NCBI GenBank assembly: GCA_001939945.1
Contig: MOEB01000022.1
Span: forward strand, 1-64,000
Source: Aerophototrophica crusticola
GTDB taxonomy: Bacteria; Pseudomonadota; Alphaproteobacteria; Azospirillales; Azospirillaceae
Reading direction: 5' to 3'
Length of the DNA: 64,000 nt
In this document: positions 9,218-60,607 of the stretch, piece after piece
Numbering within the stretch: position 1 is the stretch's first letter
Layout: every line of letters starts with the position of its first letter
Made by a program: the position numbers and the translations under genes
Notes under the pieces: model-generated
The model's input: the letters and a program-made list of their open reading frames with translations, nothing else
Told to the model about the DNA's origin: nothing
Databases searched by the model: none

Positions 9218-9344
9218 GGCACACTCCTGTCTTGCCGGAAGGAATGGCCTTGCAACAGGAGGGGGTGGGTGGGGGTTCCTGGGGGTGTTGTGCTTGCCAG
9301 GAACCGTGCCGGTTTGGATGCCGGTCGGCACCGGTGCGGTGTTC

Positions 9345-29663: not shown

Positions 29664-29815
29664 GGGGTTCCGCTTCGATTCGGGACGGGGTGCCGGACCC
29701 CAGGTCTAGCAGACGCCGGACACGGGTAGAAGCCCCCCGGTCGGGCGGTGGTTCCCTCGGGGCAACCGTCTGCTTCCATGAAGGAACCGCGCCCCTGCGG
29801 CCCTGTTGTGCGGCC

Positions 29816-31156: not shown

Positions 31157-31310
31157 AAGGGTGGCGGGCGGCGAAACGTTGCATCCGCGACACAGGGTTC
31201 CAGCGTAACGATCCAGACAAAAACCGCCCAGGGGCGGACATGTTTCGGACACGAACCGCTGGTCTCCTGCCCCTCGAACGATTGTTCCAGCCCGACGGGA
31301 GGACGCGCCC

Positions 31311-58657: not shown

Positions 58658-59485
58658 TCAGTGGCCGGGGTGGCCGCCCTGTCCCGCCAGGGCGGCGAGG
58701 GCGGGGGAATTGGGTTCCCGCGTCGGGGCGAAGACCGCCTGGGTGATGGCCCGCTCGATCTGCTCCCGGGTGAAAGGCTTGCGGATGACGGGGCCCAGAT
58801 GCTCCAGCCCGCGGCGGGTCAGCTCGTCCCCAAAGGCGGTGACGAAGATGATGGGCAGCTCGCTGCTCTGCCGCAGCATCTGCGCCGTGGTGATGCCGCT
58901 GTCGCCGTGGGCGAGGCGCAGGTCCATGAGCGCCAGGGTGGGGCGGTTGCGCTTGGCCGTGGTCAGGGCGGCGTCCATGGTGGCCGCCGTGCCGCAGACA
59001 TGGTGGCCCATGTTGCGTACCGTCTCCGCCAAGTCGAAGGCGATGACGGCGTCGTCCTCCACGATCATGATGTTGGCGATCAGCGCCTCGCGCAGCGCCT
59101 CCTGGGCCTTGACCATGCGGCCATGGGCCTCCTCCAGGGGCAGGCCCATGATGCCCGCGGCTTCGGCGAAGCCCAGCTCCTCCAGGCTGACCAGAAGGAA
59201 CAGGCGGCGCTCCACCTCCGGCAGGGCGGCCAGCGCCTTCTCCATGGGATGGCCGTCCTGGGGCACGGGCTTGGGCGAGCCGGAGGCGTCATGCAAGCGG
59301 TTCAGCAGGGCATAGAGCGGCGAGCGGTCGCGGCCACCCAGGCCATGGCCCTCGGGGTCGTCCAGCGCCTCCTGGACGGCCTGGCCGACCAGCTCGTCAC
59401 CCTTTTCCCCCGTGCCCGTCAGGGCACGGGCGTAGCGGCGCAGAAACGGCAGGTGCTTCAGTAGCTGTTGGGCGTAGGCGTCCAT
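58658..59485 (-). CDS. phyR: General stress response regulator PhyR
   Basis: Anti-anti-sigma response regulator. Unphosphorylated it is idle; phosphorylated it captures NepR and frees the sigma factor EcfG. The 275-residue protein has an ECF-sigma-like domain (about 1-130: AQQLLKHLPFLRRYARALTG...LPEVERRLFLLVSLEELGFAEAAGIMG) and a receiver domain (about 140-260) with IMIVEDDAVIAFDL, the phospho-Asp in ALMDLRLAHG and the Lys of IRKPFT. The ATG at 59485 follows GGAAGG. No nepR or ecfG was found nearby, although these genes usually cluster. Confidence 0.95.
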   Translation of the reverse strand: MDAYAQQLLKHLPFLRRYARALTGTGEKGDELVGQAVQEALDDPEGHGLGGRDRSPLYALLNRLHDASGSPKPVPQDGHPMEKALAALPEVERRLFLLVSLEELGFAEAAGIMGLPLEEAHGRMVKAQEALREALIANIMIVEDDAVIAFDLAETVRNMGHHVCGTAATMDAALTTAKRNRPTLALMDLRLAHGDSGITTAQMLRQSSELPIIFVTAFGDELTRRGLEHLGPVIRKPFTREQIERAITQAVFAPTREPNSPALAALAGQGGHPGH

Positions 59486-59708
59486 CGATCTTCCTTCCAC
59501 GGCTGCACCCATGGCGAAGGGTGCGGCTGGCCGCGTGTCCGTCACTGGCCCTAATTGTCGGGAGTTTCGCGGGGAACGCCATCCCACTTGCGCGGTCGCC
59601 CGGTCGGCATGCCCATGCCCCCTCCGGTTCGTCAGGGAGTAGCGCCTAAGCCGCGCGGGCGGGTGTTGGGTAAGCCCACCTCATCCCTGGGGAGAGGGGA
59701 TTTCGGCG

Positions 59709-59734
59709 GGAACGCCACTGCCTCCGGGCCTGTT
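59709..59734 (+). promoter_or_regulatory. Candidate EcfG-type promoter
   Basis: GGAAC (59709-59713), 17 nt, then TGTT (59731-59734). The general-stress sigma factor of alphaproteobacteria recognises GGAAC-N16/17-CGTT, so one base differs. It faces a stretch with no gene but with an intrinsic terminator 50 nt further on. Confidence 0.4.
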
Positions 59735-59740
59735 TTCGCG

Positions 59741-59831
59741 GGCACTGGTGCGTTGCCTCCCTGAACCGCCAGAAACTTGGACGCGAGCCGCCGCGGACGG
59801 GCCCAGGGCCCCTCGGGCGGCTCGTTTTTTG
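59741..59831 (+). ncRNA. Candidate small RNA beside phyR
   Basis: Between a possible EcfG promoter (59709-59734) and an intrinsic terminator (59784-59830) lie about 90 nt on the plus strand with no open frame, divergent from phyR and antisense to nothing. The 5' half has an unstructured C-rich stretch (GCCTCCCTG) of the kind that pairs with ribosome sites. GsrN of Caulobacter is a stress-sigma-dependent RNA of similar size; relatedness is not claimed. The rest of the 354-nt gap (59486-59740) shows only short palindromes. Confidence 0.42.
59784..59830 (+). terminator. Intrinsic terminator with no upstream gene on its strand
   Basis: CGAGCCGCC (59784-59792) pairs perfectly with GGCGGCTCG (59816-59824) and is followed by TTTTTT (59825-59830). 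The loop can fold further (GGGCC/GGCCC). Both flanking genes are on the minus strand, so it must end some plus-strand transcript. Confidence 0.8.
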
Positions 59832-59839
59832 TCCGGGGG

Positions 59840-60607
59840 TCAACGCAGGGGGTTAGCCGATGCCCCTTCCAGGGCGGCATGCCGCGTGCCGTCCCCGGCG
59901 GCGGGGGCATGGGCGATCTCCTTCACCAGCTTGGTCATGATCGCCTCCCCGAAGGTGGAGAAGTCCTCCGCCACCAGCAGGAAGGCGCCGGGGCCGCCGA
60001 TGACGTGCTGCTGGTAATAATTGTCCAGGTCCAGGGGCGGCAGCCCGCCCCAGGGGTTCGGCCGGCTGTTCAGGATGGGCAGGCCATTGATGGTGATGCC
60101 CCGGGCGATGGCGTCGTCGCGTGCCTCCTCTGGCGGGCGGCCGCGGTTGCTGTAGCCGTCGCCGGAAATGTCGATGACCTTGCGCAGGCCCTGGTAGCCG
60201 TTGTTGTCGAACTTTGCGGCGCCATAGTCGATGGCCGTGCCGATGCTGGTCCAGAAGGCGGTGCTGACGGGGGCCTCCGCCAGCTTGGTGGCGAAGGCGC
60301 GGGCGCTGGCCTCCCCATCCAGGACCGACCAGTCAACCACCGTCACCTGGTAGGTGTCGTCGGCCCATTCCACATAGGTCACGGCGATCCGGCCATGGGG
60401 ACCGGACTGGATGGCGTCCACCACCGACCGGCTGGACAGGGCATTGGCATAGCCGCGGCGCTGCAGTTCCGCCTCCTGCGCGTCCACGCTGCCCGACACG
60501 TCCACCAGCAGCACCAGCTCCAGGTCCACCAGTTCCTGCGCGCCGGAAGGTCCGGCCCAAAGGGCCAGGGCGGTGAGGCAGGCCGGGAGGAGGCGGGTCT
60601 TACGCAT
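59840..60607 (-). CDS. DUF1194 secreted von Willebrand-A-like protein
   Basis: A 255-residue exported protein with signal peptide MRKTRLLPACLTALALWAG. It shows a MIDAS-type metal site LLVDVSGSVD (D-x-S-x-S), YVEWADDTYQV, and IDISGDGYSNRGRPPEEARDDAIARGITINGLPI, the DUF1194 hallmark. VWA domains bind proteins through the metal. Function unknown. The ATG at 60607 begins the signal peptide. Confidence 0.88.
   Translation of the reverse strand: MRKTRLLPACLTALALWAGPSGAQELVDLELVLLVDVSGSVDAQEAELQRRGYANALSSRSVVDAIQSGPHGRIAVTYVEWADDTYQVTVVDWSVLDGEASARAFATKLAEAPVSTAFWTSIGTAIDYGAAKFDNNGYQGLRKVIDISGDGYSNRGRPPEEARDDAIARGITINGLPILNSRPNPWGGLPPLDLDNYYQQHVIGGPGAFLLVAEDFSTFGEAIMTKLVKEIAHAPAAGDGTRHAALEGASANPLR

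Follow-up and report, generated by a model that had tools for sequence, protein, structure and literature searches.

The stretch of 64,000 nucleotides from Aerophototrophica crusticola that was analysed here (the window, taken at its whole length) contains an intrinsic terminator which faces the plus strand in a gap between two minus-strand genes. One of these neighbours is phyR, and the question raised by the locus is what is transcribed towards the terminator and whether such a transcript is part of the general stress response (GSR). In a preliminary description, a small RNA that depends on a stress sigma factor was proposed, and this proposal was followed up by computational analysis.

Results

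On one side of the gap lies phyR (58658 to 59485, minus strand), whose product matched the Pfam domains PhyR_sigma2 and Response_reg and scored above the cut-off of NCBIfam NF006623, as a PhyR-family response regulator and anti-anti-sigma factor. On the other side is a gene with a profile match to DUF1194 (VWA) (59840 to 60607, minus strand), which is convergent with the small RNA gene; the start codons of both genes were our choice. On the plus strand, the EcfG-type promoter could be read directly, with a -35 element GGAAC (59709 to 59713), which is kept in homologues, a spacer of 17 bases and a -10 element TGTT (59731 to 59734). As had been claimed, this is one base away from the EcfG consensus, the consensus base being C (CGTT). 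The predicted small RNA of approximately 90 nt (59741 to 59830, plus strand) would start about 7 nt past the -10 element, near 59741, and would end with the T run. Its 5' hairpin (59745 to 59772, plus strand) is near-invariant in the family and carries CCUCCC (59756 to 59761) in the predicted apical loop. The terminator (59784 to 59830, plus strand) was also found as described: CGAGCCGCC at 59784 to 59792 pairs with GGCGGCTCG at 59816 to 59824 in nine perfect pairs, followed by six T's at 59825 to 59830. The fold of 59780 to 59831 had a free energy of -33.6 kcal/mol (z -3.6), while that of the whole predicted RNA was less striking (z -1.75), little better than shuffles. Within the gap, positions 59560 to 59605, which lie towards phyR, resemble a stretch in the genome G007 (L006) and are possibly part of the phyR promoter.

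Taken singly, each of these motifs is weak evidence, being mildly enriched, and it is conservation that decides. The pattern GGAAC-N16..18-YGTT occurred five times in the window compared with a mean of 1.28 in shuffled sequences, none of the 100 shuffles reaching five; the other four occurrences lie at 1382-1407, 9254-9279 and 31175-31201 on the minus strand and at 29783-29807 on the plus strand. Genome-wide, GGAAC-N16/17-TGTT was found 47 times, compared with 29 for a reversed control pattern, and ten terminator-like sites were counted in 9 kb, where 4.0 were expected.

When the gap was compared by BLASTN with 59 genomes (own included), matches were obtained in 12, eight of them on the hairpin core and three more, besides the own genome, elsewhere. 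The eight core homologues were read, and they carry a promoter-like GGAAC shortly upstream (GGAAT in G013) and usually, on the downstream side, a GC-rich hairpin with T's. A core pattern gave 26 loci among 84,980 species genomes, in Azospirillum, Oleisolibacter, Arenibaculum, one Roseomonas and one Rhodospirillaceae MAG, and copies are present in Azospirillum brasilense records. The core has a type 1 form, TGGTGCGTTGCCTCCCTGAACCGCCA, in the window, G007, G012, G019 and G022, and a type 2 form, TGGTGTGATTCCTCCCTGAACCGCCA, in Azospirillum and others, besides which there are a few diverged copies.

A covariance model, R1, was built on positions 59734 to 59783 with 29 homologues (30 sequences in all); as these sequences had been picked by their core, the invariance of R1 in the core is partly a matter of ascertainment. 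With R1 at E <= 1e-6, the RNA was recovered from 48 of the 82 family genomes, and the search at order level gave the same set of 82. At E <= 0.1, 60 of the 82 passed, those beyond the 48 being weak; there are weak matches elsewhere in G001 and G033. Among 289 genomes sampled from the class, which include a few of the family, 26 passed an E of 0.1 with the own copy counted, the best match besides it having an E of 1.1e-4, and no credible copy was found outside the family under filters strict enough for weak copies to escape. The 25 weak class-wide loci were scanned and rejected, none having CCTCCC behind an EcfG-type promoter; four of them were read, which have no promoter and by their look resemble coding sequence.

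No Rfam 15 family was matched at its gathering score by the window and seven homologous loci, and two sub-threshold matches within 59600 to 59900 were taken as chance. A description of the RNA was not found in the open-licence literature searched. In a study of the small RNAs of A. brasilense Sp245 (PMC7685610), phyR is not mentioned in the main text, and the RNA may be among its candidates; PhyR, EcfG and small RNA are all absent from the text of a study of A. brasilense RpoE6 (PMC12826043).

The promoter and terminator were assessed in 49 distinct loci pooled from all sources, with the window included, identical stretches used once, none more than 95% alike and copies with short flanks excluded. 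The pattern for reading these loci was widened after diverged copies had been seen, and the loci were chosen by core, not by promoter. Clear islands of conservation were the -35 element, the -10 element and the 26-nt hairpin core, with a weaker conserved ACT behind the hairpin. A check for conservation of GGAAC and the terminator in relatives had been put forward in the preliminary description, and the proposal withstood it. The promoter, as GGAAC-N16/17-NGTT in the expected 44-nt stretch, is present in 46 of the 49 loci compared with 87 of 98000 shuffles (0.09%). Of these 46 loci, 45 have a T ahead of GTT, so TGTT is the normal form in the family of this RNA, and with one copy per carrier genome the counts are likewise 46/49 for NGTT and 45/49 for TGTT. 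The three misses are the G013 copy (L007/L059), which has GGAAT, and L108 and L111, which keep GGAAC with a degenerate -10 element. A terminator, defined as a stable hairpin whose tail is rich in T, was found in 45/49 loci compared with 142 of 980 shuffles (14%); L004 and L017 have a T-poor tail, and L022 and L035 a much longer 3' hairpin, which looks as if the loop had gained inserted sequence while the strong stem was kept.

The position next to phyR had been claimed from the window alone; across the family, the linkage proved to be much stronger than could be seen there. Orthologues of PhyR at full length were counted in 58 of the 82 family genomes (best hit below 1e-60; none of the others had a hit better than 1.4e-23), and the RNA is present in 48 of these 58 compared with none of the 24 without PhyR (Fisher p 4e-13, a value that ignores shared ancestry). 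A 49th, diverged copy adjoins phyR in G086. Of the 49 located copies, 48 point away from the best PhyR match in divergent orientation, at a median distance of 443 bases (43 within 1 kb and five at 2-3.8 kb), and in G092 the two are on different contigs. Nine other genomes with PhyR show no adjoining copy, among them G014, where the contig breaks off beside phyR; in G078, G099, G094, G033 and G024 no copy was seen around the best PhyR match. In G001 the gap between DUF1194 and phyR is closed, with the order CorA-DUF1194-phyR kept (L101), and in G009 (L102) and G002 (L103) DUF1194 is also missing beside phyR; judged by these three genomes, a stepwise loss of the RNA seems to have taken place within the genus of the window. 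Six further genomes of this genus are without full-length PhyR.

Facing phyR, the pattern GGAAC-N16..18-NGTT was found in none of the 42 gaps read. Looser words of the form GGAAC...CGNN face phyR in 18 of the 42, and two GGAAC-N17-CGGG/CGGY-like words recur with this orientation in Azospirillum loci (e.g. L017, L019, L030 and L065), for which close kinship may be the cause.

The usual nepR neighbour of phyR had been described as missing, and this holds: the genes adjoining phyR are those for DUF1194, CorA and an amidase, and both NepR-family matches in the genome (G000) are on contigs other than that of the window. A candidate EcfG/NepR pair, not linked with phyR, lies on contig C285 (L098:498-1743). 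It consists of an ECF sigma factor with a match to the Pfam PhyR sigma2 domain and, behind and overlapping it, an anti-sigma-like ORF that carries a NepR motif. At G000:C1:605719-606053 (L097) there is an anti-sigma-like ORF of 100 aa with a NepR motif, which has GGAAC-N16-TGTT just upstream; a second, divergent GGAAC-N16-TGTT faces an ORF that was labelled by reading as short-chain-dehydrogenase-like.

Taking these observations together, we judge it very probable that the gap holds a genuine and conserved small RNA gene which is linked to phyR and controlled by EcfG. That EcfG is needed we infer from the promoter together with the linkage to PhyR, and the start site, the mode of pairing and the sign of regulation are likewise predictions.

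Discussion

The best reading of the locus, to which we give a probability of about 0.72, is a free-standing, EcfG-driven, PhyR-linked small RNA that acts in trans through a pairing CCUCCC loop. Activation of PhyR would release EcfG from its anti-sigma factor, and RNA polymerase with EcfG would then transcribe the RNA of approximately 90 nt from the GGAAC/TGTT promoter until it stops at the intrinsic terminator, giving a transcript with two hairpins. The loop of the 5' hairpin would expose CCUCCC(U). In a manner similar to GsrN, this element could pair in trans with target mRNAs, at segments that are G-rich or resemble a Shine-Dalgarno sequence (AGGGAGG), and under stress could so alter how these mRNAs are translated or how stable they are. 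Action by pairing of the loop with mRNAs is, as a part of this reading, likely.

The comparison with GsrN of Caulobacter, which had been drawn at the outset, stands for the logic of the RNA (promoter, phyR locus, size and C-rich loop) and does not extend to a demonstrated common ancestry or target. As far as the available text of PMC5869019 describes it, GsrN has a GSR-sigma promoter, a length of approximately 100 nt, an exposed C-rich 5' loop and a 3' intrinsic terminator, and acts by pairing in trans, katG mRNA with its G-rich leader being a target. According to the same text, BLASTn with GsrN gave hits in Caulobacteraceae only, and predicted homologues are typically near core GSR genes, with C. 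crescentus as the exception (PMC5869019). Processing to a stable 5' isoform and an influence of Hfq are further traits of GsrN. The RNA described here shares with GsrN an EcfG-type promoter, the phyR locus, a predicted length of about 90-100 nt and an intrinsic terminator, and its predicted 5' loop is C-rich. Nearness to core GSR genes holds here for phyR only, the NepR matches of the genome being elsewhere. However, the GsrN loop has six tandem C, while the CCUCCC loop is C-rich without being six C, and the reported hits of GsrN lie in Caulobacteraceae, while R1 gave no credible copy outside its own family among the 289 class genomes sampled. The GsrN target katG (TIGR00198, cut-off E 1e-50) is present in two of eight carriers and missing in six, for which reason it was rejected as a common target. 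In both carriers with katG, GGGAGG precedes its start codon, which may perhaps be an ordinary ribosome-binding site. By its promoter, location, size and C-rich loop, the RNA would be set beside GsrN and ReC64 and would work like them.

By description, a further likeness is to ReC64 of Rhizobium etli, an EcfG1-dependent ncRNA of the ecfG1-phyR region whose start was mapped by 5' RACE, according to the available text of PMC3892343, and to the putative GsrN homologues of Rhizobiaceae mentioned in that of PMC5869019; common to them are an EcfG-dependent ncRNA in the ecfG-phyR region and a GGAAC-N16-CGTT motif. ReC64 lies downstream of phyR-tcrY, whereas the RNA described here is divergent from phyR and nepR does not adjoin it in the genome of the window. 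In NfeR1 (alpha-r14) of rhizobia, an anti-Shine-Dalgarno word was shown to act on mRNAs by pairing, as the text available of PMC10746234 has it. The likeness here is the anti-Shine-Dalgarno word in an unpaired hairpin region, while NfeR1 has three hairpins with CCUCCUCCC and is controlled by LsrB/NtrC; the multiple CCUCCUCCC loops of alpha-r14 and of cuckoo-type anti-Shine-Dalgarno RNAs are absent from the present RNA, which has one CCUCCC loop and an EcfG-type promoter. The CcsR RNAs have a C-rich anti-Shine-Dalgarno motif. They are alphaproteobacterial small RNAs with a role in stress defence, which is the likeness to the present RNA; in Rhodobacter they have an RpoHI/RpoHII promoter and are co-transcribed with the DUF1127 gene ccaF1 (PMC10253847, in the text available), whereas the gene described here stands alone and has an EcfG-type promoter.

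As to targets, the own genome has 41 occurrences of CAGGGAGG-N4..9-ATG compared with two of the reversed pattern, which shows the complement of the loop to be part of ribosome-binding sites. By analogy, this enrichment fits pairing at or near the Shine-Dalgarno sequence, as with NfeR1, or with a G-rich leader, as with GsrN and katG. The CCUCCC-type anti-Shine-Dalgarno word also resembles, we presume, the tail of 16S rRNA; the one pattern used for this 3' tail gave no match in three genomes, perhaps because the variant does not fit these organisms. The target search compared ORFs preceded by CAGGGAGG-N4..9-ATG, 17 in G000, 18 in G007 and 43 in G022, and covered 25 of the 41 sites of G000 and six loci each of G012 and G034. 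Among the candidate ORFs of G000, G007 and G022 there was no homologous pair, and one distant pair, with 39.6% identity, was found between G000 and G012. The strict candidates of these three carriers thus gave no target to bear out the pairing mechanism.

This result also bears on the strongest alternative, which is unlikely: an EcfG-dependent RNA that acts through a protein, as a binding site or a decoy, and not by loop-mRNA pairing. A protein would then bind the near-invariant stem, in which a U-G wobble is invariant, and the failure to find a shared mRNA target speaks for this reading. Across the copies that were aligned (48 copies, 41 distinct rows, with L111 excluded for a stem deletion), 97.6% of stem cells are paired, and the pairs 14-37, 15-36, 16-35 (the wobble) and 17-34 are invariant in the 41 rows; in these core-selected rows, this is more constraint than pairing alone needs. 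However, the outer U-A pair is swapped for C-G in two of the 41 rows, the only double-sided change, with three other pairs departing by unpaired cells only, and the most exposed conserved element is CCUCCC, akin to the loops of GsrN and NfeR1 that have been shown to pair with mRNAs. The CCTCCC word is found in 49/49 carriers, both the R1 model and the reading pattern favouring it. As the stem hardly varies, covariation is weak, and the stem is supported by conservation and not by covariation. A lower stem extending the 5' hairpin, suggested by the MFE folds of several copies, was rejected on in-register pair counts.

It is improbable that the conserved element is a short peptide gene, or the leader or attenuator of a downstream gene. 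Frames from CTG cross the core in 42/49 loci (the CTG being inside the core) and frames from GTG in 16/49, and in some Azospirillum-type loci (L016, L017 and L033) the next ORF downstream is on the same strand, as such a reading would have it. Against it, ATG frames of at least 10 codons cross the core in only four and three of the 49 loci, in two different frames, none being common to the 49, and the type 2 copies with ATG-GTG reach a TGA at once. The downstream content also varies, being DUF1194 with type 1, ORFs without a Pfam match (L016 and L017) or an AMP-binding gene about 1 kb away (L029), and in the window and four other type 1 carriers (G007, G012, G019 and G022) the DUF1194 gene is convergent. 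The RNA is therefore taken as non-coding.

The same convergence, together with the T run ending 10 bases from the DUF1194 stop codon, could speak for a 3' antisense RNA or a terminator element serving DUF1194; this is very improbable, as the RNA persists at type 2 copies, around which tblastn of the fetched stretches found no DUF1194, and only the plus side has a T run. Chance motifs in a GC-rich gap, for which the mild enrichment of every single motif could be adduced, have a negligible probability, being already refuted by the conservation, the phyR linkage and the co-occurrence with PhyR.

If the preferred reading of a trans-acting small RNA with a pairing loop is taken further, the whole 26-nt hairpin could be under selection and the RNA, triggered by PhyR, could serve quite generally to slow down or to sort the initiation of translation on mRNAs whose ribosome-binding sites are of the AGGGAGG type. 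We consider this doubtful; if true, the RNA would act globally instead of on a few specific targets.

To summarise, the RNA, for which neither an Rfam match nor a description in the open-licence literature searched was found, is likely to be one of the outputs by which Azospirillum and related bacteria, among them plant-associated nitrogen fixers, carry out their general stress response. The finding suggests that an EcfG switch is coupled with a small RNA of the C-loop kind beside phyR not only in Caulobacter and the rhizobia but well outside these groups, with a different sequence and probably with different targets there.
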